Origin: Rhizobium sp. EC-SD404
GTDB lineage: Bacteria; Pseudomonadota; Alphaproteobacteria; Rhizobiales; Rhizobiaceae
Assembly (NCBI RefSeq): GCF_902498825.1
Contig: NZ_LR701459.1
Span: forward strand, 452,527 to 516,526
Reading direction: 5' to 3'
DNA length: 64,000 nt
The number at the start of each line of letters is the position of its first letter. Position 1 is the first letter of the stretch. A program made the position numbers and the translations under genes. Under the pieces are notes generated by a model. That model was not told where the DNA came from. It saw only the letters and a list, made by a program, of their open reading frames with translations, and ran no database searches. Positions 2,503-19,180 of the stretch are shown here, one piece after another.

Positions 2503-3484
2503 CGAATGCTCCCATCCTTGCGTCTGAGGCAATGAAGCGTGTTGCGAGAATTCGTGCGAGCTTTTCTCCATTCTTGAACGGTGCCCAACCGTTGCGCGGC
2601 ACTGGGCATGGCGTGCCACACGTGTTTGCTTGTGCCCGGTCTTACAATGGCACGCTCGCCGGCCAGAACGACCTTCCCGCATTGCAGAGGAAGCCGGCGT
2701 CCTTGGTTGCTACTCCGCAGCTCGGCCAGCTTTCTGAAGCTCCTCATGGCGGATTCTGTCAGCGAGTTGAAGAAGCTTGGCTATCGTCCTGATCTTTGGA
2801 GTTGCCAAAAAATTGCATTCTATTGGACGGTGCGGGGCAATGATTTCTTCGGTTCTTACACGACAGACAGCAGCGGGTGTCAGTTGATACCAATGAGGAA
2901 AAGCTGGTGATTGCTTTTTGCAAAGAAAACAGGTTATCGAGATTTTTGTTCTTGATTCAATCTTGATTTGTTCGGATTACATGAGCTGGATCAATATCAG
3001 CTCTTTCACAGAGGCTGGCGCTTAGCTGATCGGTCACGTCGCGAGTGCGTAATGCGTCCATTGGGGTTTTGACGTAGCCGGCCAGACGGCGGCTGGAGAC
3101 GGATAGCCCTGAAACGCAACGTTTTGCCAATTGTGGCCGGACGTCCAGCTTGCCCTATGTCCTGCCGTTCAGATGATCGCTACGATGAACCTGTAAGGTG
3201 GATGTACGGCCGGAGTGATTAGACGGCGCTTTCGGGGCGGGAAGCGAAATGACACCGGACGGCCGCTTCAAAGAACCATTGGGAGCCCTTCGTTCTGATC
3301 CCCCAAGCGTCTTGGGCGGCCGAGCTTCTGCGGCCGTTGCTGCTGACACCTTACCGATCGTCGCGCGGCCAGCGAAAGCCCTGGGCTGAAGCCGCCATCT
3401 CGGCAAGAAGCAATTGATGCACACATAACCTTAACCAGTGTTTGCGAATACATGAATGGAGATCACCACGACCTGGGAGGGAAA
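2503..3484. other. Gene-poor stretch of nearly 1 kb
   Basis: I see no convincing gene. Candidate frames (plus strand 2581-2910, minus strand 3155-3424) lack ribosome sites and have compositions typical of shadow frames. The stretch from about 2920 to 3020 is clearly more AT-rich than the rest of the window. It may be decayed mobile or phage DNA, but no transposase, integrase or inverted repeat can be recognised. Confidence 0.4.
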
Positions 3485-3622
3485 ATGCTGTTCATGCGAC
3501 GCAAGAATTCCCCGACCCCGCCATCTTGGGAAGAGGCTCTTTTCAACCTCACGGATGTGATCATAGTCGTGGCTGCAATTGCGATCTTAGGCAGAGCATG
3601 TTGTTCGATTTTCGGCCGTTGA
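3485..3622 (+). CDS. Small single-pass membrane protein (45 residues)
   Basis: A strong GGGAGG ribosome site ends 5 bases before ATG 3485. The product has a basic, proline-containing N-terminus (MLFMRRKNSPTPPSWEEALF) followed by one hydrophobic stretch (TDVIIVVAAIAILGRACC) and ends GR. It would be a one-span inner-membrane microprotein. An intrinsic terminator lies about 110 bases downstream. A second, overlapping frame (ATG 3598 to 3717, 39 residues) runs closer to that terminator and is a weaker alternative. No family is recognised. Confidence 0.45.
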   Translation: MLFMRRKNSPTPPSWEEALFNLTDVIIVVAAIAILGRACCSIFGR

Positions 3623-3729
3623 TCGAGGAGGCGCAGGCAGAGCAGCATTCACGGTCCGAAGAGCGCCATGGTGGTTCGGTAAAGGTGGCTGCGAGCCCCC
3701 GCAACCAAATCAAATAAACCAGATCGATA

Positions 3730-3759
3730 AAGCCCCAGCATCAGCCCTGGGGCTTTTTT
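3730..3759 (+). terminator. Rho-independent terminator
   Basis: A perfect 9-bp stem (AAGCCCCAG at 3730-3738 with CTGGGGCTT at 3747-3755), an 8-base loop and a run of six T. It closes whatever plus-strand transcript covers the small open frames at 3485-3717, supporting that this stretch is expressed. Confidence 0.85.
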
Positions 3760-4168
3760 GCATTCCAACAGCACCCAACGCGAGGATCGCTCCAGGCTCG
3801 CCAACGAGCTCGATCGCAGTCCGCCATCATCCTGGATCATGCGGATTGCAGACAGAAGAGCGCGCACGCGCGAATGCTGCAAATGACCTAGTCTTTTCGG
3901 CTTTATGCTTTCCTCTCTAACAATCGTGCCGCGATAGCGCTGCCGATTGCTGCAACAACTCACGCGCGATTTTAACGAATTTGCAATCGACCCTCATTAG
4001 CTTGTTCCTGGCGGGTGAGACCTACCTTGAGGCCATGAGCGCCATTGACCGCGATGATCATCTTCCGGCAGATCTGACATGTGGTCGTCCGAAACTCGGC
4101 GTCGAGCGGTAACTCCTTGAACCTGAGCCTTTGACAGCTTCTGCCCCTTGCAGGCTTGGGGACCTTCA
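3760..4168. other. Intergenic region upstream of the chemoreceptor
   Basis: No gene is supported in these 409 bases between the terminator and the chemoreceptor start. It should carry the promoter of the mcp-cheW pair. Two minus-strand frames here have no ribosome site. Confidence 0.5.
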
Positions 4169-6130
4169 ATGAAATTCTTCACAAACGCTCCGGTACGAGC
4201 GAAAATTTTGGCGCTCGTCATTGCGCTCGCCGTGACGTCCGTGGGCGGCGCCGCATTCATGGCCCATGAGGCCAACTCGTCGAGCTCAACTTTCCTGGAA
4301 TTCATCGAGGCCGATATCGAGGCAACGTCGATGGTGTCGCGTGCAACGAGAAACCTTCAGTCTGTCGCCTATCGCTCGTACCAAGCGCTCGACAGCGAGC
4401 CTGGATCGCCAGCCCATGCGGTCGCGCTGGAAAGCTACGAGGGCAATGCCGAGCAGATGATAGATCGGCTTTCACGAGCCATCGAACTGATGCCGGCCGA
4501 AACGACCGTGCTTTCCGCGCTTCGCGAGCGCGCGGGGCAGGTCGTGGAAGGAACCGGCAGCGCCATCGATCTCGATAGTGACGGCAACAATGAAGCGGCA
4601 CGAACAGCCTTGATCGCGACCGATCTGCTCATCGACGAGCTCACGACCGATCTCCGAGTTTGGAGTGAGACGATGTCGGATACCATCCAGGGGCAAAGCA
4701 GTGCCTTGAAAGTGGAAAGCGATCGCTTGACGCTCATCACCGTCGGCTCCCTGATTACGCTTTCGGTGGCCATGGCAATTGTGTCTTTGATTGTTTCCAC
4801 CGTGGGCATCACGCGCCCCATCGCGGCGTTGAAGGCGCGTATGCAGTCCTTGGCGGAGGGCGATCGGGAGCAAGAGGTCCCTGGACTGAGCCGAGGTGAT
4901 GAAATCGGCAAGATGGCGGATGCCGTTGAAGCATTTCGGCAGGCGGCAATCGAGAAGGTCCGTCTGGAAGACGAGGCCCTTGAAGCGCGAGGCAGCAGCG
5001 AAGCACAAAGGTTGGAGCGCGAGCGCCAGAAGGCCGAACAAGCTGCCGAAGTTCAAGTGGTGGTCGACGCCCTCGCCGAAGGACTCGGGAAACTTGCAAA
5101 TGGCGATCTCGGCTTTCAGCTCGATCAACCCTTTGCAGGCGATATGGACAAGCTGCGCTCCGACTTCAACAACGCGGTCACCCGATTGAATTCGGCAATG
5201 GTGTCGGTCACCGAAAACGCGCGCGCCATTCATTCGGGCTCTGAAGAAATACGGGTCGCAGCGGACGATTTGTCCCGCCGCACGGAGCAGCAAGCAGCGT
5301 CGGTCGAAGAAACGGCTGCCGCCTTGGAAGAGATCACCACCACCGTCGCCGACAGCACGAAGCGGGCAGAAGAAGCCAGAAACCTCGTGTCGAAGACCAG
5401 GATCGAAGCCGAGCGCTCGGGCGACGTTGTGAACAATGCCATCGTTGCGATGAGCGCGATCGAGAAATCGTCGACCGAGATTTCCAACATCATCGGCCTG
5501 ATCGACGACATCGCGTTTCAGACCAATCTGTTGGCGCTCAATGCCGGCGTTGAAGCCGCGAGAGCGGGCGAGGCGGGTCGGGGCTTTGCGGTCGTGGCTC
5601 AGGAAGTGCGCGAACTTGCCCAACGATCAGCGCGTGCGGCCACGGAGATCAAGGTTCTGATCAACGCGTCCGGCCAGCAGGTCAAATCTGGCGTCGCGTT
5701 GGTCGGTGAGACGGGACAGGCGCTGTCGACGATCGTTCGGGAGGTCCAGGAAATCAACGAACACGTCGCGGCGATCGCTGAGAGCGCCCGAGAGCAGTCC
5801 GTTGGATTGAGAGAGATCAACACAGCCGTGAACAGCATCGACCAGGGGACGCAGCAGAATGCCGCGATGGTGGAGCAGTCGACCGCTGCCAGCCACAGCC
5901 TGGCCCAGGAGGCGGCAGCACTCAACGAACTGATTGCTCAGTTCAAGGTAGCCGATGGTTACACAAGCCCGGCGAGGTCCCCTTCACGCGCTCCTGCGAT
6001 TGCATCCGATCGTGCCAAGTCCGTCGATTCGCCCGCTCGCAAACTTGGTCGGAAGCTCGCGACCGCATTTGGCGGCGGATCCACCGCTGCAGCGGTCGAT
6101 CAGTCCCGTGAGACCTGGGAGGAGTTCTGA
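4169..6130 (+). CDS. Methyl-accepting chemotaxis protein
   Basis: This 653-residue chemoreceptor has a transmembrane segment near residues 10-28, a periplasmic four-helix-type sensor region (about 30-185), a second membrane span (about 187-213), a HAMP region with [12 protein letters not shown], a second HAMP-like segment near 310, and a long signalling coiled coil. The hairpin tip (about 440-475, [20 protein letters not shown]) is the highly conserved part that contacts CheW and CheA. The last five residues, TWEEF, fit the xWxxF tether that recruits the CheR/CheB methylation enzymes. ATG 4169 is preferred over an upstream TTG because GGGGA precedes it. cheW overlaps the stop codon. The ligand cannot be read from the sensor domain. 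Confidence 0.95.
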
Positions 6131-6600
6131 TGCCAAGTCCCATCGTCGGAAGCTCTGAAGCTTCAGTGGAAATCATCGCCTTTCACCTGGGTGCACAACA
6201 GTTCTGCGTGGAGACGCTTGCGATCAGAGAAATCAGGGGGTGGGCGCCATGCACACCCCTTCCCCACTCTCCTCGGGAGGTTTTGGGCGTCATGAACCTG
6301 CGGGGTTCGGTGATCCCAATCATCGACCTGGCAGCGCGGCTCGATATGCCTGCGGCAGAACCGTCGGAGCGAAGCGCAATCATCGTCGCTGAAGTGAGCG
6401 GAAAAGTGGTGGGTCTTGTCGTCGAACGCGTGTCCGATATCCTTCGGGTGAAACGAAACGACATTCAACCGATACCAATCGTCTCTGCCGACTTCGATGC
6501 GAGCTATGCCGAAGGGATTATTGCCCTGCCAGCCGGCATGGTCTGCTTCCTCAATCTGCCGCGACTGTTCTCAAACAGTTCTGTCGAGATGGCGGCCTAA
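6130..6600 (+). CDS. cheW: Chemotaxis coupling protein CheW
   Basis: The 156-residue protein is a single CheW domain and shows the family signature REVLGVMNLRGSVIPIIDL near residues 54-72 and a VVGLVVERVSDILRV strand pair near 96-110. It should couple the upstream receptor to CheA at the inner membrane. Its ATG overlaps the receptor stop (TGATG at 6128-6132), so the two are translated together. No cheA, cheY or cheR is nearby; the pair therefore plugs into a chemotaxis system encoded elsewhere. Confidence 0.93.
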   Translation: MPSPIVGSSEASVEIIAFHLGAQQFCVETLAIREIRGWAPCTPLPHSPREVLGVMNLRGSVIPIIDLAARLDMPAAEPSERSAIIVAEVSGKVVGLVVERVSDILRVKRNDIQPIPIVSADFDASYAEGIIALPAGMVCFLNLPRLFSNSSVEMAA

Positions 6601-6645
6601 GGCAACGCACAGGGATTGCCGTCTCGAACCCTGGGGCGGCTTGAC

Positions 6646-6708
6646 GACGATGGCCAGCTCCACGCTGACGATGGCCAGCTCCACGCTGACGATGGCCAGC
6701 TCCACGCT
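6646..6708. repeat. Three perfect 21-bp tandem repeats
   Basis: The unit GACGATGGCCAGCTCCACGC plus a final T is repeated exactly three times (6646-6666, 6667-6687, 6688-6708). It lies between the convergent ends of cheW and the minus-strand unknown gene. The unit is a multiple of three, so any frame through it stays open (it would read SVELAIV on the minus strand), but no start or ribosome site supports translation. Confidence 0.9.
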
Positions 6709-6765
6709 ATCGACCGAGCTACGATCCAAGTGAAGCCGGTGAGCGGCGAGCATCGTGGCGCTCCG

Positions 6766-8751
6766 TCATCCTGGCTGGCGGGATATCCCCCAGCCAATGG
6801 CGGTCAAAGCGACGATCTCGTCCACCAGGCTTTCAGGCACCTCAGCGCAGTCGCCGCTTGAAATCGGGTCGTCGTGGAAGATGTAGACATGAGCTGCGAA
6901 CTGCTCGAAAGGCAGTGACGCTTCTCCATAGCGCTCTCCATGCCCTTCGGTCGATACGACAGTGCCGTTTCCCCAATCCTGGCCGCTGTCATTGTTCGGG
7001 TTATAGAAATAGACCCGCATCACCCCATCTTGATCCAGTGCGGTTCTGATCAGACTTATGGCGTGCCATCCGACAAACGCGCCCGCATTGGTCGTCGCAG
7101 CAATTCCGACCGGCTGAGGGTGAATAATCTGCTGATTGCCGTTCCATGCCGGGTGATAGGCCGCACAGAATCGCCTGACGAAATCCTGGTGCCCTGTGAG
7201 GAGTCCGCTGGTGATGTCGACTGCGATATGAAAGTTGCGGCCTACCCACCAGCCATGGAGTTCGGGATTGATCCAGCGGTGCGGGTCGGCGTCGCGATCT
7301 TCGCAACGGCGACCCATTTCCGCGTAGATTCTGTCCAGATGAGGAACGAGGATTGCCGATATCGGGTCGGCATCCAGAACGGAGGTCGTGACGAGGCCAT
7401 CCCCAAGCGTGCTGCTCTCGATCCGTTGACCTTCGAAATGCATGATGAGGTTGTCGTGCAGCGCCGCTTGAGCCACGATGTGAAGCAGATAATCCGGGTC
7501 GTTCAACGCCCAGAGCGACAAGGCTCTTGCTGACTGGCAGGTCGGATTGTTGCCCTGACCTATTCCAAGCGGCAGACCAAGCACCTGCAGAAGGCCAGCC
7601 ACGAGATGTGCCTTCGGCTCGATACCCCGGCCGAAGCTTCCGGACACCAGTCGCTGAACAGGCTCGCACGGAGTCAGGTCAAGCGTCCGCCAGAGCGATG
7701 GGGCGACCGGTGGAGCGTAGAGGATCCCACGTTCGAGCATGAGTGCCAGGCCAAGTACCGCCTGCGCGGTCTCCGGGAACATGGCGGTGCGGATCAGCGC
7801 ATGAACCAGCGCCGAGTAGCATCGCATCGCATCAAGCCCTGTGCTGCTCAATCCGAGTGACGTGGCCAGAAGCTGGTCTCTCTCACAGTCGACCGTCCAG
7901 CGGACGAATACGGGATGGTAGTCGGACACGAGACCGGTTTCGTGCATGCGCTTGGCGAGCGTTTCGGCCTCCAGCTTCAGCGTTTTGTCATCCGCTGCGG
8001 AAAGGCGGTCCGTGTAGACGCTTAGGCCGGGGTCGTCGGCACAGAGAGGAGCGGGCGAGAACAGGGCCTCGACGAGCCCTTTCGCCCGCTCGGACAGGTG
8101 CGATCGGGGAAAGCTGGCGTCAGAGCCAGTTGCTGCGATCTGGGAGATCATCCCTTTGATGTGCCCGATCTGCACTGGCCGCTGGGCCAGCACGCGATGC
8201 ACTTCGTCGACGAGCTTTTCCTGGATGGTCATCGGCCCGACGGTTTCGAGCAATGCGGAGAAAAGACGGTTGATCGCGGGGTCGAGCGATCCGGCCGAGT
8301 TCCGGCTGGCCTCGTCACTTGCCCCAAAAATGCGGGCGAGGTTGAGCGCCAGCACCTTGGCCAGAAATTCCGACGCCGCCTTGGGTGTCACCTCGGAATT
8401 CTCATGGGATCCATCGGCGATGGCGGCAAAGCGCAGGAGGCTCATGCACTCCAGCATCTTGGTTTGCACGGGTCCGTTGCTCAAGGTTCCACCGACCAGA
8501 CCGGGCAACAGCGATGCCGGATGATCCCAATCGGAACCGGCAAACAGGCCCGCATCATCGGCACGGACCGCTCTGTCACGCAGAACGGTCAGCCCGCCGT
8601 CGTGCGCCATTATCCGTCGAGCGACGTCGAGCAGTCGACCTTGGTAATTGGCCTTGGCGAAGCGCGATGCATCCTCCAATTGTCCGAGCATGCGGTCGAA
8701 CTGTTCGGTAATTTCTTCGAGCGACCGCCGTGTCGTATTCAAATGGTTCAT
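6766..8751 (-). CDS. Unknown 661-residue protein with papain-like C-terminal domain
   Basis: I do not recognise this protein by family. No signal peptide or membrane span is seen, so it is probably cytoplasmic. Residues 1-390 are mostly helical. From about 395 a papain-like catalytic layout appears: Gln399 in GIGQGNNPTCQSARALSLWA sits exactly six residues before Cys405, the spacing of the oxyanion Gln and nucleophile Cys in papain; His563 follows in FVGWHAISLI; Asn584 follows in YFYNPNNDSGQDWG. The protein ends in a short strand-rich tail. It lies 112 bp downstream of an ATP-grasp gene on the same strand and is probably co-transcribed. It could be a cysteine peptidase, amidase or acyltransferase. 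The catalytic reading is inference from motif order and spacing. Confidence 0.7.
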   Translation of the reverse strand: MNHLNTTRRSLEEITEQFDRMLGQLEDASRFAKANYQGRLLDVARRIMAHDGGLTVLRDRAVRADDAGLFAGSDWDHPASLLPGLVGGTLSNGPVQTKMLECMSLLRFAAIADGSHENSEVTPKAASEFLAKVLALNLARIFGASDEASRNSAGSLDPAINRLFSALLETVGPMTIQEKLVDEVHRVLAQRPVQIGHIKGMISQIAATGSDASFPRSHLSERAKGLVEALFSPAPLCADDPGLSVYTDRLSAADDKTLKLEAETLAKRMHETGLVSDYHPVFVRWTVDCERDQLLATSLGLSSTGLDAMRCYSALVHALIRTAMFPETAQAVLGLALMLERGILYAPPVAPSLWRTLDLTPCEPVQRLVSGSFGRGIEPKAHLVAGLLQVLGLPLGIGQGNNPTCQSARALSLWALNDPDYLLHIVAQAALHDNLIMHFEGQRIESSTLGDGLVTTSVLDADPISAILVPHLDRIYAEMGRRCEDRDADPHRWINPELHGWWVGRNFHIAVDITSGLLTGHQDFVRRFCAAYHPAWNGNQQIIHPQPVGIAATTNAGAFVGWHAISLIRTALDQDGVMRVYFYNPNNDSGQDWGNGTVVSTEGHGERYGEASLPFEQFAAHVYIFHDDPISSGDCAEVPESLVDEIVALTAIGWGISRQPG

Positions 8752-8863
8752 GCAACGTCCCGTGCCTGTGGCTTGCCGGTTCTACCCTGTAGATTGCACT
8801 TCCAGCATGCCACAGAGCTCAATCTCGATTCATGGCGGTTGTCACCAACGGCCGGGGCATGGG

Positions 8864-10090
8864 CTAGACATAAAAGTCCAGATCTTCCTGGCGTTTCAGC
8901 AAGTCTCGCATTTGGTGTGCGTCGTTGCCGAAGAAGTAGACCAGCCCCCAATGCGTTCCGAACGCCGTGCGCTTGGTGACTTTCTGCTCCATCGGCGGCG
9001 CCAGCTCGTGAAACTCGAAATAGCTGTGGTTTTCGGTTTCTTCGGGTATCTGCAGCTCACTCACAACCCGCCGACGCGGATAGACACCGAAACAGCCTGC
9101 ATGTCCCTTCGCGCCGACCACAGGCTCGGGGAAAAAGGCGTCCAATTCTTCCTGCGTCGACTTCGGATCGAAGGCGAGGACCAGAGCCTGATAAGCGTTG
9201 AAGCCATAGGCTCGCTCCATCAGTTCGAAAGCATTGAATCCTGGTGGGCGATAGGCGACCTCGCCAAAGTAGAGAGTGCCGTCGTTCGTCACGAAGTATT
9301 CCGGATGGATGAAGCCGAAATCGATATCGAAGACTTCGATCAGCTTTTCGATCTGCTCCGTGATACGCCCGCGCCATTTTTCCAGTTCTGGAGTGGCGGG
9401 TACGAACACCGAATAGCCGAGCGTCACGTACTCGGAGATATTGAGAAACTGAATTTTCCGGTCCTTGATCCACGCTTCAACAGCGAATTCCCAGCCGTCC
9501 AAATGTGATTCCAGCAGCGCTGGAAACTCGTCGTCCGAAATCGCATCGACGTCGTCGGCCGTCCTGATTACGCGGTGCCCGAGACAGCCTGCCTTATCGA
9601 AGGCCTTCATGTGGATCGGGTCATTGACGTCGCCTTCGAGTTTGAGCAACGTCTGGTTGACGCGCTTCAGGAACCGGATGACATCCGACCGGTCCATCGC
9701 CTCCTCGAAGATGCCCACTCGGATACCACCGAGTTGAGCGCGACGCTTCATCAGCGATTTATCGCGAAACAGCATCGACTGCCCAAGAAGGCGCGGATTT
9801 CCCAGCAGAACGGAATTGATCGCGCCGGCCCACTCGACCGTTTCCTCAAACAGCGGAATGGCGACGTCGACGCCCATATCCTTCAGCGTTTGCGCAATTT
9901 CATGCGAACGGTCGTTGAGCCTTTCGAAGTCCCATTTGATGAATGGTATATCGTTGGCGGTCGCGTATTCTTCCGCCCAGTATGGCGCGACGACGATATA
10001 ACGGCGGTCGAATTTCGCGATTGCCTCAATGGCCTTGAGGCTCCAACCAAGGATGGCGACATAGCCCTTGTCGGGGTTTGCTTCAGTCAT
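8864..10090 (-). CDS. ATP-grasp domain protein (carboxylate-amine ligase type)
   Basis: This 408-residue protein has a pre-ATP-grasp Rossmann-like part (1-105), the linker DKSLMKRRAQLGGI (110-123) typical of the ATP-grasp lid entry, and a core whose metal-binding segment reads GFIHPEYFVTNDGTLYFGEV (259-278), with Glu264 and Glu277 placed as magnesium ligands followed by RPPG (281-284). Such enzymes join a carboxylate to an amine or thiol through an acyl-phosphate. The substrate is unknown. A GGGAG ribosome site precedes ATG 10090. It heads a two-gene unit with the papain-like protein downstream and lies 213 bp beyond pqqE on the same strand. A link to PQQ is possible from position but not shown. 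Confidence 0.85.
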   Translation of the reverse strand: MTEANPDKGYVAILGWSLKAIEAIAKFDRRYIVVAPYWAEEYATANDIPFIKWDFERLNDRSHEIAQTLKDMGVDVAIPLFEETVEWAGAINSVLLGNPRLLGQSMLFRDKSLMKRRAQLGGIRVGIFEEAMDRSDVIRFLKRVNQTLLKLEGDVNDPIHMKAFDKAGCLGHRVIRTADDVDAISDDEFPALLESHLDGWEFAVEAWIKDRKIQFLNISEYVTLGYSVFVPATPELEKWRGRITEQIEKLIEVFDIDFGFIHPEYFVTNDGTLYFGEVAYRPPGFNAFELMERAYGFNAYQALVLAFDPKSTQEELDAFFPEPVVGAKGHAGCFGVYPRRRVVSELQIPEETENHSYFEFHELAPPMEQKVTKRTAFGTHWGLVYFFGNDAHQMRDLLKRQEDLDFYV

Positions 10091-10303: not shown

Positions 10304-11428
10304 TCATCGTCGGTAGACGAAGTCGCCGGGCGTGGCGGCGCCGTCGCTGGCGGCTGCCGCTGTCAGAATTTCGCGTAAGGGGGAGCGGATACAGACCGGG
10401 TCGGTTGCCGTCGCATCGCCGGCGAGCGCCATCGCCTGGCATCGGCAGCCGCCGAAATCGACGTGCTTGCGTTCGCAAGAGCGGCATGGCTCCTGCATCC
10501 AGGCGTCGCCGCGAAATGCGTTGAAGGCCTCTCCGCGATACCAGATATCGGCCAAGGGACGTTCGCGCACATTGTCGAAGCGGAGCGACGGGATGGTGGA
10601 TGCAGCATGGCAGGGGAGCACCTTGCCGGACGGTTCGACATTGAGGCCGATGCGGCCCCAGCCGCCCATGCAGGCCTTGGGGTATGTGGAATGGTGATCG
10701 GCGGGGACGTAGTCGATGACGAGAACGCCCTTCAACCGTTCGCGCGCGGCGGCAACAGTTGCGTTGGTGCGCACCACCTGTTCCTGCGTCGGCATCAGGG
10801 CTTGGCGGTTGCGCTCGGCCCAGCCGTGGAATTGCACCGTCGCGATCTCGATGCGTCGGGCACCCAGTTGAACCGCGAGATCCAGCATTTCGTCGAGCTG
10901 GTCCATGTTCTGCTTATGGCAGACCGCATTGACGGTGAGCGGAATGCCGGCCTGCCCGACCCAGCCGGCAACGGCCATCTTGCGCTCATAGCCGCCCCGG
11001 TAACCGCCGACATGATCCGCCATGGCGGCGTTGGCGCCCTGCAGCGACAATTGCACATGGTCGAGACCTGCGTCCGACAATTGCTGGACCCGCGCTTCGG
11101 TCAGGCCGACGCCGGAGGTGATGAGATTGGTATAGAGGCCGAGATCGACTGCCGCTTTGGTCAGTTCGACGAGATCGCGTCTCGACGCGGGCTCGCCCCC
11201 TGAAAGATGCAGGTGCAAGATGCCGAGTGTGGCGGCTTCTGCGAAAACGCGGATCCATTCCTCGGTCGTCAATTCTTCGCGCAGGCCCGTCAGTTCGAGC
11301 GGATTGGAACAATAGGGACAGGCCAGTGGGCAGCGATGCGTCAGTTCGGCCAGGAGCGCCATCGGCGGCGGAATGCGGGGTGCTTCGGTCGTCGCGGTCA
11401 TCCGTTCACGAGTCTGGGTGGCTGTCAT
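10304..11428 (-). CDS. pqqE: PqqE, radical SAM enzyme of PQQ synthesis
   Basis: PqqE forms the first carbon-carbon bond between the Glu and Tyr side chains of the PqqA peptide. The 374-residue sequence shows the radical SAM cluster motif CPLACPYC (Cys33, Cys37, Cys40) and, toward the C-terminus, the auxiliary SPASM-type cysteines (ACMGGWGR, PCHAAS, PCRSCERKHVDFGGCRCQA). Length is normal. Its ATG overlaps the pqqD stop by four bases, so it is the last gene of the pqqBCDE operon. Confidence 0.97.
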   Translation of the reverse strand: MTATQTRERMTATTEAPRIPPPMALLAELTHRCPLACPYCSNPLELTGLREELTTEEWIRVFAEAATLGILHLHLSGGEPASRRDLVELTKAAVDLGLYTNLITSGVGLTEARVQQLSDAGLDHVQLSLQGANAAMADHVGGYRGGYERKMAVAGWVGQAGIPLTVNAVCHKQNMDQLDEMLDLAVQLGARRIEIATVQFHGWAERNRQALMPTQEQVVRTNATVAAARERLKGVLVIDYVPADHHSTYPKACMGGWGRIGLNVEPSGKVLPCHAASTIPSLRFDNVRERPLADIWYRGEAFNAFRGDAWMQEPCRSCERKHVDFGGCRCQAMALAGDATATDPVCIRSPLREILTAAAASDGAATPGDFVYRR

Positions 11429-11727
11429 CAGATGATCTCCAGCATTCGCCGATCGGAGAGTTCCTGCACGAAGGCAGTGACGTCTCCGACGATCTGGTCG
11501 CGCGGCGCGCCGAATTCAGCCGCAAAGGCATCGGTGATGGCGTCGATCGACCGGACTCCGTCGAGCGCCTGGACGATCTTCACCGCGATGTCGTCCAGCG
11601 CCATGGCGCGTTCCGGCGCGAGCAGCACTTGCTGGCCACGCACCGCATCGTCGCGCAGCCTGACACCGCGCGCCAGTCGCGCGACCGTTGTCCCGTCGAT
11701 CGTGGCGGCGGATGCTTCGCCGTTCAT
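11428..11727 (-). CDS. pqqD: PqqD, PqqA-binding chaperone
   Basis: PqqD carries the PqqA peptide to PqqE. The 99-residue protein has the compact winged-helix-like RRE fold sequence: LARGVRLRDDAVRGQQVLLAPERAM trace, then a helical IVQALDG...AITDAFAAEFGAP segment and C-terminal FVQELSDRRML. The start at 11727 is taken because it overlaps the pqqC stop as ATGA; an upstream extension is possible but sits inside pqqC. It is a separate gene, not fused to pqqC or pqqE as in some species. Confidence 0.95.
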   Translation of the reverse strand: MNGEASAATIDGTTVARLARGVRLRDDAVRGQQVLLAPERAMALDDIAVKIVQALDGVRSIDAITDAFAAEFGAPRDQIVGDVTAFVQELSDRRMLEII

Positions 11728-12491
11728 TGGGCGGCTCCCTGAAATTCGGAGCTTTCCCGAACGCCCGTTTCCCCATCCCAACCACCGGGGGGGATGCGCG
11801 CCGGGGCGACATAGGCCGAATGCAGCGCGTCGAGCTGCGACCAGAGGACGTCCGTCTTGAAGGTCAGTGCCGCTGCGGCCGCATCCTGCTTTTCGAGCGT
11901 ATCGGCGTGGTCGAGCACGTAAGCGAGACCGAACGCGACATCCTTGGGCGCCTCGTTCAAACGGGTTCGAAAATAGGAAAGCGCCGCATCGTCGGCGAAG
12001 GCGTAGTGTTCGAGAAGGCCGGCGATCCGCTGGCTATGGATCCTCGGCGCGAACAACTCGGTCAGCGATGCGGCGACGGCTTCCAGCATCGGCTTGTCGC
12101 GCACGAAGGCGACGTAAGCGTCGACGGCGAAGCGTGTGGCGGGGAGCACGCCATCGGTCGAGGCGACATAATCCGGATCGAGGCCAACGGCTTCTGCGAG
12201 TTTCAGCCAGCGCCGGATGCCTCCCCCTTCGGCTACGCCGCCGTCGTGATCTTCGATGCGGGAGCGCCACGCGCGGCGCAGATCGGGATCCGTGCAGCGC
12301 GAGAGAAAGGCTGCATCCTTCATGGGAATGCGGCTCTGGTAGTAATAGCGGTTGATCACCCAGGCGCGCACCTGCGTCATCGTGCATTGGCCGCCATGAA
12401 GAAGGCCATGAAACGGATGCTTGTCGTGGTAGCGGGTCTCGCCGATGACGCGAAGACGCGCCTCGAAAGCTTCTCGCGACTGAGCCGTCAT
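11724..12491 (-). CDS. pqqC: PqqC, final oxidase of PQQ synthesis
   Basis: PqqC is the cofactor-free oxidase that closes and oxidises the last intermediate to PQQ. The 255-residue helical protein carries the family's conserved N-terminal segment YHDKHPFHGLLHGGQ and INRYYYQSRIPMKDAAFL, with the His, Tyr and Arg residues that line the active site. It overlaps pqqB upstream (ATGA, 12488-12491) and pqqD downstream, so the operon is translationally coupled. Confidence 0.97.
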   Translation of the reverse strand: MTAQSREAFEARLRVIGETRYHDKHPFHGLLHGGQCTMTQVRAWVINRYYYQSRIPMKDAAFLSRCTDPDLRRAWRSRIEDHDGGVAEGGGIRRWLKLAEAVGLDPDYVASTDGVLPATRFAVDAYVAFVRDKPMLEAVAASLTELFAPRIHSQRIAGLLEHYAFADDAALSYFRTRLNEAPKDVAFGLAYVLDHADTLEKQDAAAAALTFKTDVLWSQLDALHSAYVAPARIPPGGWDGETGVRESSEFQGAAQ

Positions 12492-13402
12492 GTCAGTTGA
12501 ACCTCCATCCCGTCATGCCCGATTTCATGACCCGCCTGTTCGGCGGCGCGTCGTTCGGGGCCGTGCTGCCACACGGGATTGGTATTGTTGATATGCACAT
12601 AGATGGTGCGCCCGATGGCGAGGTCCTTCAAGGCTTCGATGCTGCCACCCTCGCCGGACATCGGCATGTGCCCCATGCGACGGCCCGTCTTGAGGCCGGT
12701 GCCGGCGCGCGCCATCTCGTCGTCGTGAAAGACCGTGCCATCGAAGAAGACCAGATCCGCGCCTCTGATGCGCGCGGCCAACCGGTCGGTCAGGCGACCG
12801 CAGCCGGGGATGTAGTAGATCCGCTTGCCCGATGCCGTCAGTTCGACTCCGACGGTCTGCTCGCCTTCGAGAGCCGTGTCCGGATTCTCGCCTTCCATGA
12901 AGAGAGGCAGTTTGCCGGGGACGGCAAAGAGCGTCGCCTCCATGCCGTCGACCAACGCGAAGGGCTGATCCAAGGCGATCGTGATGCGCTCGACGCAGTT
13001 CGGGTCGAGCACCTCGAACACGGGGTTTGCCGCCAGGATGTCTCCGATGGCCGCCGTGGTGAACAGCCGAAATGGCTGCTTTTCACGCAGGATCAGAAGA
13101 CCGGCGATATGGTCGATATCGCCATTCGTGACGAGCACGCTTGCAATAGGCGTGTCTCTCAGCGAGCGGGGATGCAGCGCCGGATTGGCTTCGATCTGCG
13201 ATCTGATGTCGGGGGAGGCGTTGAGAAGCGACCAGTCGCGCCCGTTGGCGGTTACGGCCAGCGACGATTGCGTCTGCGGTGTGAGCGCGCCGTTCGGGTC
13301 GCGTGCCTCACGGCAGTTCGAACAGCCACAGTTCCACTGCGGCAGGCCGCCGCCGGCTGCCGCTCCCAGAACGAGTGCACGGACATTGTTGGTTTCTTGC
13401 AA
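12488..13402 (-). CDS. pqqB: PqqB, metallo-beta-lactamase-fold hydroxylase of PQQ synthesis
   Basis: The 304-residue protein begins with the PqqB hallmark ALVLGAAAGGGLPQWNCGCSNC (Cys pair and Gly run, residues about 10-30), followed by SLAVTANGRDWSLLNASPDI and the metal site region TNGDIDHIAGLLILRE. It hydroxylates the cross-linked Tyr of processed PqqA. The start codon is TTG (13400-13402) placed after GGAGGAGG; no nearer ATG exists. It heads the minus-strand operon pqqBCDE and is divergent from pqqA. Confidence 0.95.
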   Translation of the reverse strand: MQETNNVRALVLGAAAGGGLPQWNCGCSNCREARDPNGALTPQTQSSLAVTANGRDWSLLNASPDIRSQIEANPALHPRSLRDTPIASVLVTNGDIDHIAGLLILREKQPFRLFTTAAIGDILAANPVFEVLDPNCVERITIALDQPFALVDGMEATLFAVPGKLPLFMEGENPDTALEGEQTVGVELTASGKRIYYIPGCGRLTDRLAARIRGADLVFFDGTVFHDDEMARAGTGLKTGRRMGHMPMSGEGGSIEALKDLAIGRTIYVHINNTNPVWQHGPERRAAEQAGHEIGHDGMEVQLT

Positions 13403-13880: not shown

Positions 13881-14630
13881 TCAGGCGCGGATGATCTCGG
13901 GGTACCGATCTTCCAGATCCGACAGAACGCGATCGAAGGTAGGGCCACGGCGTTCCTGCGGCGGAAGCGGCACTGCAATCTCCGCGGCGATACGAGCCGG
14001 ACGGCCGTTCATCAACAGGAGACGATCCGCCAGCCGCACCGCCTCGCGCACATTGTGCGTGACCATCAATACCGTGACGCGATGAAGCCGCGCCAGATCG
14101 ACAAGCAGTTCGCGCAGACGATCTGCCGTGTGTTCATCCAGGGAAACGAAGGGCTCATCGAGCAGCAGGATGTCCGGCATGACCGCGAAGGCCCGTGCCA
14201 GCGCCACGCGGCGTTCCATGCCAAGCGACAACTCTCCCGGATAGCGATCCGCAAGACCTTCCAGACCGAGGATCTGATAAAGCGGCTCGAGGTCGAGGCC
14301 ATGGCCGCCAGCCTGCGCGAGCCGGATATTCTGATCGACCGTGCGCCAAGGTAGGAGGCGCGGTTCCTGAAAGACCGCGGAGATGCGTGTCTCGCTGGAG
14401 GGGAGCGCGATCTCGCCATCGTAATCGGTCTCGAGCCCGAGCAGGATTCGCAGCGTGGTGGTCTTGCCGCAGCCGGAGGGTCCGATCATGCATGTGAATG
14501 TCGCAGGCGCCAGACTGAAGGCGAGGTCGGCGATGATGTCGCTCTGACTGCCGTCTGCCGACCTGAAGCTCTTGGATCGGATCAGGACGTCAAACGAGCT
14601 TGGGCCGCCAGCGCGTGAGATGGTGTTCAA
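13881..14630 (-). CDS. ABC transporter ATP-binding protein (nitrate/sulfonate/taurine type)
   Basis: The protein has Walker A GPSGCGKTTTLR, a Q-loop at VFQEPRLLPW, an ABC signature reading ELSLGMERRVALARAF (LSLGM in place of LSGGQ), Walker B DILLLDEP and a switch His in MVTHN. It would energise import through the permease encoded upstream. No ATG opens the frame in the right place: a TTG at 14630, inside the permease 3' end, gives 249 residues, and the overlap implies coupled translation. The frame is open further upstream, so the exact start is uncertain. It is last in the operon GFA protein, binding protein, permease, ATPase. Confidence 0.88.
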   Translation of the reverse strand: MNTISRAGGPSSFDVLIRSKSFRSADGSQSDIIADLAFSLAPATFTCMIGPSGCGKTTTLRILLGLETDYDGEIALPSSETRISAVFQEPRLLPWRTVDQNIRLAQAGGHGLDLEPLYQILGLEGLADRYPGELSLGMERRVALARAFAVMPDILLLDEPFVSLDEHTADRLRELLVDLARLHRVTVLMVTHNVREAVRLADRLLLMNGRPARIAAEIAVPLPPQERRGPTFDRVLSDLEDRYPEIIRA

Positions 14631-15339
14631 GAGGCTGTACCACGATGAATTCGATTGCGAGCATGACGATGATGAAGGCGAGAGCATAGGCGAGAACCGC
14701 GGCGACATCGAACAACTGGAAATAAAGGTGGATCTGGAAGCCGACGCCGTTGGAACGGCCGAGGAACTCCACGACGAGAACGATCTTCCAGATGAGCGAC
14801 AGGCCCGAGCGCCCGGCTGCGGCGATGAAGGGCTGCATCTGCGGCAGCACCACGTGGCGCAGCGTCGCCATGCGGGAGAATCGGAAGACGCGGGCCATCT
14901 CGGCGAGCTTCCGGTCCAGCGCGCGGGCTCCTTCGCGCACCGTGATCACGACATTCGGGATCTTGTTCAGGGCTACCGCGAGAATGGCGGCGACTTCCGT
15001 CAAGCCGATCCAGATGTAGCAGAGCACGATCACCACGAGCGCCGGCATGTTGATCATGAGAATGACCCAAGGATCGAGCAGCCGATCGGCGGTCCTGCTC
15101 TGGCCCATGAGGATGCCGATCGCAGTGCCGATGGCCATGGCAAGGCAGAAGGCCGCTGCGACGCGCATGAGCGTAGCGCTGAGATGGAAAAGCAGCGAGC
15201 CTTCCGTTAGCTCGCGCGCAAAGGTCTGGAAGACGGCAAAGGGCGTCGGGACTTCAGGGCTGTCGGCGAGATAGGCGGCGAGGGCCCAGACGATCAGAAA
15301 GCCGCCGATGGAGATCAGTCTGAGCGGTGCTTGCCGCAT
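14590..15339 (-). CDS. ABC transporter permease (SsuC/TauC type)
   Basis: The roughly 249-residue inner-membrane protein has about six hydrophobic spans and the cytoplasmic EAA-like loop KLAEMARVFRFSRMATLRHVVLPQMQPFIAAA that docks on the ATPase. It belongs to the binding-protein-dependent transport permeases of nitrate, sulfonate and taurine importers. ATG 15339 is taken; a GTG immediately before it is the alternative. It follows the binding-protein gene by four bases and overlaps the ATPase gene. Confidence 0.92.
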   Translation of the reverse strand: MRQAPLRLISIGGFLIVWALAAYLADSPEVPTPFAVFQTFARELTEGSLLFHLSATLMRVAAAFCLAMAIGTAIGILMGQSRTADRLLDPWVILMINMPALVVIVLCYIWIGLTEVAAILAVALNKIPNVVITVREGARALDRKLAEMARVFRFSRMATLRHVVLPQMQPFIAAAGRSGLSLIWKIVLVVEFLGRSNGVGFQIHLYFQLFDVAAVLAYALAFIIVMLAIEFIVVQPLEHHLTRWRPKLV

Positions 15340-17353: not shown

Positions 17354-19180
17354 ATGGGGATGGAGATGAAGAAATCCGGATTGATGGCGGCGTGTTCGGT
17401 GCTGGCTTTTGCCGCCACGACATCGCTTGCCACTGCGAACGACGAACTTGTCGAGATGCAGCAGAATGCCAAGAACTGGGTGATGCAGCTCGGCAATTAC
17501 TCCGCCACGCGCTACAGCGAACTGGAGGAAATCAACAAGGACAACGTCGGCGATCTACAGGTTGCGTGGTCTTTCTCCACCGGCGTCCTGCGCGGCCATG
17601 AAGGTGGCCCGCTCGTCATCGATGGCGTGATGTACATTCACACGCCGTTCCCCAACAAGGTCTTCGCGCTCGACCTGAACGACAGTGGTCGGATCATCTG
17701 GCGCTACGAGCCCGAGCAGGACCCGAACGTCATCCCGGTCATGTGCTGCGACACGGTCAACCGTGGCGTCGCCTATGCCGATGGCAAAATCATCCTCCAT
17801 CAGGCGGACACCAACGTCGTTGCGCTCGATGCCCAGACCGGCGAGGAGCTCTGGAAGGTACAGAACGGCGATCCGTCCAAAGGTGAAACCGGGACGATGT
17901 CTCCGCTCATTGCCGGTGACAAGGTGCTGGTCGGCAATTCCGGTGGTGAGTTCGGCGTCCAGGGTCACATGACCGCCTACAATCTGGAAACGGGCGAGCA
18001 GGACTGGCGCGCCTATTCCGTCGGACCGGACGACCAGATCCTTCTCGATCCGGAAAACACCACCCATCTGGGCGAGCCAGTCGGCGAAAACTCGAGCGTC
18101 GACACCTGGGAAGGTGACCAGTGGCAGCTCGGCGGCGGCACCGTTTGGGGTTGGGTCTCCTATGACCCGGAACTCAACCTTGTCTATTACGGCTCGGGCA
18201 ACCCCGGCACATGGAACCCTGCGCAGCGCCCCGGCGACAACCGCTGGTCCATGACGATCTTCGCCCGTGACCTCGATACCGGCGTCGCGAAGTGGGTTTA
18301 CCAGATGACGCCCCACGACGAGTGGGACTATGACGGCGTCAACGAAAACATCCTCGTCGACATGGAAATCGACGGTGAGGAACGCAAGGTTCTCTTCCAC
18401 CCCGACCGTAACGGCTTTGCCTATACCCTCGATCGCGAGACGGGCGAGCTGCTTGTCGCGGCGAAGTACGATCCCGCGGTCAACTGGGCGACGGAAGTCG
18501 TCATGAACGAAGACGATGAGCAGTACGGTCGGCCGCAGGTCGTTGCGGAGTACTCCACTGCGCAGAACGGTGTTGACGTGAACTCGGAGGGCATCTGCCC
18601 CGCCGCTCTCGGCACGAAGGATCAACAGCCTTCCGCCTACTCGCCGGAAACGGGACTCTTCTACATTCCGACGAACCACGTCTGCATGGACTACGAGCCC
18701 TTCCAGGTCTCCTACACTGCAGGTCAGCCTTATGTCGGCGCGACGCTCTCCATGTATCCTGCCCCTGACAGCCACGGTGGCATGGGCAACTTCATTGCCT
18801 GGGATGCCGCTGCCGGCGAGATCGTCTGGTCGGTCGAAGAGCCCTTCTCCGTCTGGTCGGGTGCCTTGGCCACGGCTGGCGACATCGTGTTCTACGGCAC
18901 GCTCGAAGGCTATCTGAAGGCTGTGGACATGGAGACGGGTGAAGAACTCTACCGCTTCAAGACGCCATCCGGGATCATCGGCAACGTCAACACCTACGAG
19001 CATGACGGCAAGCAGTATGTGGCCGTGCTCTCAGGCATCGGTGGCTGGGCCGGCATCGGTCTCGCCGCCGGCCTGACGGAAGGTACCGACGGTCTGGGTG
19101 CAGTGGGCGCATATCAGTCGCTGTCCGATTACACCCAGCTTGGCGGCCAGCTGACGGTGTTCAGCATCCCGAGCGAATGA
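17354..19180 (+). CDS. xoxF: XoxF, lanthanide-dependent PQQ methanol dehydrogenase
   Basis: XoxF oxidises methanol to formaldehyde (or further) in the periplasm with PQQ and a lanthanide ion. The 608-residue precursor has a signal peptide ([20 protein letters not shown], cleaved near ATA-ND) and an eight-bladed propeller with repeated W-motifs. The vicinal disulfide that stacks on PQQ is Cys131-Cys132 ([10 protein letters not shown]). The decisive motif is [12 protein letters not shown]: Asp325 is the catalytic base and Asp327 is the extra lanthanide ligand; calcium-type MxaF has Ala there. GGGAGG precedes ATG 17354. No mxaI small subunit lies nearby, as usual for XoxF. It heads an eight-gene operon. 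Confidence 0.97.

Follow-up and report, generated by a model that had tools for sequence, protein, structure and literature searches.

The window, a stretch of 64,000 nucleotides from Rhizobium sp. EC-SD404, carries on its minus strand a gene for a predicted papain-like protein of 661 amino acids (hereafter PAP) and, upstream of it, a gene for a putative ATP-grasp ligase. The features of this locus are as follows:

6766..8751, minus strand: PAP, 661 aa, predicted papain-like protein (whole ORF, including the stop codon)
7618..8751, minus strand: N-terminal domain of PAP, all-helical in the AlphaFold model, residues 1 to approximately 378
6769..7617, minus strand: C-terminal domain of PAP, probably papain-like (AlphaFold model and fold matches), approximately residues 379–661
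7555..7557, minus strand: Gln399, predicted oxyanion-hole residue, invariant in 69/69 homologues
7537..7539, minus strand: Cys405, predicted nucleophile, starting helix 405–417, invariant in 69/69
7063..7065, minus strand: His563, predicted base in strand 559–572, invariant in 69/69
7000..7002, minus strand: Asn584, predicted third residue, after strand 578–583, invariant in 69/69
8864..10090, minus strand: putative ATP-grasp ligase, 408 aa (PF13535 at E 9.2e-4, below the cut-off; relatives adjoin PAP)

The PAP ORF consists of 661 codons, begins with ATG and fills positions 6766–8751 of the minus strand, the sequence-only reading having left the strand unstated. Stops interrupt the plus strand over these positions when it is read in frame 1. 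A total of 2799 proteins, from 7998 candidates scored, were related to PAP at E ≤ 0.001, so the ORF is a true gene rather than a chance frame. The 120 relatives listed are annotated as hypothetical or uncharacterized proteins or are nameless, and none of them has a precomputed Pfam domain. Searches of PAP against the Pfam and NCBIfam profiles yielded no family above the cut-off, and individual Pfam scans of 69 homologues gave scattered, weak and unrelated matches, with no family of the papain clan (Pfam CL0125; MEROPS clan CA) at E ≤ 1. PAP sequence searches of the PDB gave no credible match. PAP therefore lies outside every family named in these profile collections, as the sequence-only reading had claimed. 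A hydropathy scan found no hydrophobic stretch resembling a signal peptide or a membrane helix (the 19-residue mean peaks at 1.36 over the whole protein and at 0.44 close to its start); PAP is probably a soluble, cytosolic enzyme.

That reading had also described a papain signature in PAP, formed by Gln399, Cys405, His563 and Asn584, and these residues and their motifs do match the translated ORF. Each of the four residues is invariant in the 69 sequences of alignment A2, in all 20 sequences of alignment A3, including 13 distant relatives at 44–49% identity, and in the 58 C-terminal fragments of alignment A4, and no homologue in these alignments lacks the Cys or the His. Sequence L034, with a stop within the frame, was excluded from A2, and A4 takes only the part of it beyond this stop. 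Cys405 is the sole cysteine conserved at a level of at least 98% in A2, and the C-terminal half of PAP is better conserved than the N-terminal half in this alignment. Invariance alone is no proof of catalysis, as A2 has 95 invariant columns among the 661 of the reference. Neighbours of the active-site residues vary in A3, with Arg409 and Trp562 each present in 14 of the 20 sequences.

AlphaFold returned a mean pLDDT of 84.8 and a pTM of 0.72 for the whole protein (model m7255742724b4), and values of 82.1 and 0.84, respectively, for residues 376–661 (model m9e41598207b0). The C-terminal part was folded separately because helical repeats swamped the fold search with the whole protein. According to DSSP, Cys405 opens helix 405–417, His563 lies in strand 559–572 and Asn584 is found past strand 578–583 in both models, and the predicted order of helices and strands in the C-terminal domain is that of papain. 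The closest solved structures to the C-terminal model were papain-like, with modest significance in the fold search; the VIA rows 7n87, 6a0q, 6a0n, 8ssk, 9jdd and 5d74 were not counted as papain-like. Residues 392–403, including Gln399, had a pLDDT below 50 in the domain model, and the role proposed for Gln399 therefore rests on sequence; in the whole-protein model, this residue adjoins a stretch (401–403) of pLDDT below 50. The long helical N-terminal domain that had been read from the sequence was recovered as an all-helical domain in the AlphaFold model, with weak helical-repeat matches only in fold and sequence searches. The proposal of a divergent papain-fold enzyme was supported by the invariance of the residues, the predicted helix and strand order and the modest fold matches, and found no counterpart among the family profiles. 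The C-terminal domain thus probably has a papain-like fold, and we strongly infer that PAP combines this predicted fold with thiol chemistry.

The ligase gene of the window is located 112 bp upstream of the PAP gene, on the same strand. Its product matched PF13535 with 19.3 bits (cut-off 27), and this domain is precomputed for part of the 120 closest ligase relatives listed. Among the ten PDB matches of the ligase, L-amino acid ligases ranked second and fourth (E 0.27 and 0.46) and were outranked by an unrelated phosphorylase. A relative of the window's ATP-grasp gene adjoins the PAP gene in 78 of the 80 loci from named genomes (two of the 78 being C-terminal fragments). In 77 of them the ligase gene comes first, in the same orientation as the PAP gene, the order being reversed in L014. 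The gap between the matched stretches of ligase and PAP has a median of 73 bp. The ligases are 75–97% identical to that of the window (74 loci with a long match), and identity is lower for PAP (48–81%, 80 loci). In four Halomonas-type loci, only C-terminal pieces of the ligase (L061 and L065) or no ligase at all (L057 and L067) were found beside PAP, and the PAP frame is still open in each of them; two other loci (L048 and L056) are truncated at contig ends. No ligase was found beside the PAP relative in 6 of a set of 13 loci mapped. Some relatives of PAP are thus without a ligase neighbour, and PAP may act alone. Together, PAP and the ATP-grasp ligase constitute a conserved, unnamed two-gene module, a finding that goes beyond the sequence-only reading. 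Three genomes of one genus (G070, G138 and G174) have three to five full-length PAP paralogues each, and the solo PAP copies of L092 and L094 adjoin ABC transporter permeases.

Beyond the ligase and PAP, the neighbourhood varies among the genera mapped, and shared neighbours are mostly confined to Halomonas-type loci. A histone-deacetylase-family gene was detected in 14 of the 108 sequences searched, L098 among them; it is also present in L102, L097, L009, L010, L034 and L041 (49–62% identity), a more distant relative was found in seven Halomonas loci, and Pfam confirmed the family in L098, L102 and L037. Amidoligase_2 and C26 amidotransferase genes lie near the module in L011, and GCS2 and AstE/AspA genes lie near solo PAP paralogues (L086 and L090). 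Neither the deacetylase-family genes tested nor the GCS2 and AstE/AspA genes near the L086 copy received a name from NCBIfam. Neighbours without a bearing on amides include genes for a fatty acid hydroxylase, a lipid A acyltransferase, a metallopeptidase and an Nramp transporter. In L101, a mechanosensitive channel gene (8486–9931, minus strand) lies immediately upstream of the ligase gene. The candidate assignment of neighbour cluster F14 as PqqE was rejected, its window member being an ABC-type ATPase frame (13881–14708) and its L018 member matching ABC_tran. An anti-phage defence role was also rejected, with no PADLOC match at E ≤ 0.1.

The window itself has pqqB-, C-, D- and E-like genes just upstream of the module (10304–13402, minus strand), with matches to the PqqD and TENA/PQQC profiles, and a gene for a PQQ-dependent dehydrogenase near it (17354–19180, plus strand). 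Many papain-like enzymes are proteases, and with such neighbours PAP could be a peptidase that cleaves proteins or peptides, such as a PQQ precursor. However, none of the 127 other loci yielded a relative of these four pqq genes, for which reason a PQQ link of the module was rejected, and the frequent pairing with a ligase and the 95 invariant columns would suggest a fixed small substrate. We therefore regard a peptidase role as quite unlikely. Systems combining an ATP-grasp enzyme with a transglutaminase have been proposed to tag proteins, and in a similar manner the ligase could add an amino acid or peptide tag that PAP would remove or cross-link; the large helical N-terminal domain, with its weak matches to repeat proteins, could bind a protein. 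However, no target gene is conserved beside the module across the genera mapped, and protein modification would leave the link with ectC, described below, unexplained, so that we hold this possibility to be improbable too.

Carriers of PAP are strongly enriched in ectC, the gene for the synthase of the salt-protectant ectoine. In the phylum sample, ectC was present in all 8 PAP carriers (one of them the window's own genome, and three belonging to a single genus) and in 31 of the 200 genomes (Fisher 1.4e-7, or 9e-7 without the window's own genome). The class sample comprised 274 genomes of the class of G070 (Gammaproteobacteria by inference), and all 8 clear carriers had ectC, as against 41 of the 274 genomes (Fisher 1.3e-7, or 9e-7 without the centre genome G070); these 8 include two members of a single genus, and also G070 itself, which was chosen as the centre and occurs in both samples. 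They exclude G327, which has a weak partial PAP match (E 1.4e-4) and is without ectC; with G327 counted, ectC is present in 8 of 9 carriers (Fisher 1.1e-6). The excess of ectC was retained in per-genus counts (2.5e-5 for the phylum and 1.4e-6 for the class). Thirty-five carriers were taken from the 80 loci, picked for spread, and 33 of them had ectC, the two misses being MAGs of 1.2 and 2.9 Mb. A set of 39 carriers was made up of the window's genome, 30 of these 35 and eight genomes from the samples; EctA was above the cut-off in 38 of them and EctB in 37. EctD exceeded the cut-off in only 15 of the 39, and a hydroxyectoine role was rejected on these grounds. One of the PAP loci (L037) is from the ectoine producer Halomonas elongata. 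The module is carried by about one in four or five ectC genomes and must therefore be dispensable for the making of ectoine. The link between the module and the ectoine pathway is nevertheless a good one.

A role in ectoine breakdown (Doe) was considered and rejected, as DoeA matches of at least 550 bits were found in 10 of the 39 carriers, with 4 above the curated cut-off. Weaker DoeA matches (184–215 bits) occurred in 11 carriers, two of them shared, giving 19 of 39 with either kind, and the weaker match of G352 corresponds to DoeA2 according to DoeA2's own model. L126 has a cluster (3566–8715) of DoeB2, DABA aminotransferase, DoeA2 and aldehyde dehydrogenase genes, an alternative ectoine breakdown pathway, with DoeB2 and DoeA2 named by NCBIfam. 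By clustering, DoeA2-like, dehydrogenase-like and EctB-like genes occur in all six regions L123–L128, and DoeB2-like genes in five of the six.

The co-occurrence with ectC could reflect salinity alone. The PAP hosts, which we take to be spread over several phyla, are in many cases presumably saline or marine by habitat. The sole control, the marine marker nqrA, is a thin one that was picked once the ectC result was known; it has a prevalence similar to that of ectC and was above the cut-off in 44 of the 274 genomes of the class sample and in 3 of the 8 carriers (Fisher 0.12). The two genes could thus be a general high-salt pair, in which the ligase would turn ordinary amino acids into a dipeptide-type solute for PAP to recycle, ectC being a co-traveller of salt. 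The presumed saline or marine habitats of many hosts and the channel gene upstream of the L101 ligase agree with this explanation, and the chemistry of the module would be identical. However, nqrA exceeded the cut-off in those 3 carriers only, and two operon-like arrangements and two relics connect the module with ectC; we consider the general high-salt pair possible but rather doubtful.

In the first of these arrangements (L098), PAP, the histone-deacetylase-family gene, the ATP-grasp gene and ectC follow one another on one strand. In the second (L008), the order is ATP-grasp, PAP and ectC, with a single base between the PAP stop and the ectC frame, which is cut off by the contig end. Each of these ectC genes is the only one found in the respective genome, and ectA and ectB are located on another contig in both genomes, with no ectC in the stretch examined there. 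In one of the two, G448, the ectA/ectB contig ends 243 bases beyond ectB, and the order of G448 comprises only 2 genomes, 1 of them positive. The relics consist of a C-terminal ectC scrap just before the ligase gene in L006 and a decayed ATP-grasp copy (3476–3885 and 3992–4393) adjoining an intact ectC in L117, the genome of which also retains an intact module. Overall, 3 of 108 sequences had ectC near the module, the scrap being one of the three, and most of the loci mapped are without it; in the window's own genome, ectC is approximately 240 kb from the module. The two intact linkages (rough Poisson 0.011) are few and provide modest support, which is strengthened by the two relics.

Enzymes of the ATP-grasp type form amides by way of acyl phosphates; those of the papain type open amides, or exchange them, with a thioester as intermediate. 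PAP would be a papain-fold thiol enzyme, with Cys405, His563 and Asn584 as catalytic residues and Gln399 in the oxyanion hole, and would act with the upstream ligase as one functional unit. The ligase would activate a small carboxylate with ATP and join it to an amine, and PAP would attack the resulting amide via a thioester, leading to hydrolysis or to acyl transfer to another amine. Because the ligase is usually encoded next to a thiol enzyme, and deacylases and amidoligases are occasional neighbours, we infer that the module both forms and breaks amides, one amide metabolite being built and then cut or remodelled. As the pair is tied to ectoine metabolism, the carboxylate would most likely be ectoine, N-gamma-acetyl-diaminobutyrate or a close relative, and the choice of ectoine or acetyl-diaminobutyrate as the acid substrate is speculative. 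We give an even chance to the module pairing an ATP-driven amide ligase with a Cys-His-Asn amidase or transamidase, with a metabolite of the ectoine pathway as substrate. A more specific and tentative proposal, which we think has a limited chance of being correct, is that hundreds of bacterial species from several phyla make an ectoine conjugate not yet described, with either ectoine or acetyl-diaminobutyrate in amide linkage, built by the ligase and broken or remodelled by PAP, as a salt-responsive store or a second solute beyond ectoine and hydroxyectoine.

No ATP-grasp/papain pair joined to ectoine was found among the titles and abstract openings listed for CC-licensed PMC articles. An enzymatic ectoine branch of this kind was not found in the available parts of PMC5924519 and PMC6344544, and the main text of PMC9006882, as far as it was available, never mentions ATP-grasp or ligase. 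The same parts of PMC5924519 and PMC6344544 treat it as an open question why ectC is in some cases located away from ectABC, and the module bears on this question. For a family of thousands of proteins (2799 matches) with no Pfam match, the analysis thus supplies a predicted fold, predicted catalytic residues, a partner gene and a likely pathway. Should the ectoine link hold, ectoine metabolism would have an extra enzymatic branch, Halomonas elongata being among the producers concerned. The product of the module is testable and possibly new.

Compared with the EctABC route of synthesis and the DoeA–DoeB route of catabolism, the module is found in EctABC genomes, sometimes beside ectC, and to our knowledge neither PAP nor the ligase is among the known ectoine-pathway enzymes. 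The partner ligase has weak sequence matches to L-amino acid ligases (BL00235, 3vot, and 4wd3; E values as above). Unlike calpain, staphopain and the C1 peptidases, PAP is linked to a ligase and has no secretion signal, and it shows no detectable sequence similarity to them. The acyl transfer proposed for PAP may be likened to the reaction of phytochelatin synthase (C83; cyanobacterial Alr0975), a papain-like transpeptidase for which we know of no ATP-grasp partner; PF05023 (phytochelatin synthase) had no match in PAP or in its 69 homologues. Glutathionylspermidine synthetase/amidase (E. coli Gsp, MEROPS C51.A) likewise pairs an ATP-grasp ligase, its synthetase part, with a papain-like Cys amidase, both acting on one amide. 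Gsp is a single fused protein made up of a CHAP amidase and the synthetase, whereas the module consists of two genes and has a papain-like domain not of the CHAP type and a large helical N-terminal domain. The available part of PMC10318531 places the E. coli Gsp amidase in CHAP; PAP did not match the CHAP profile, and no sequence match to Gsp was detected. By the tests run, Gsp would therefore be an analogue rather than a relative of the module, and may be regarded as its closest working one.
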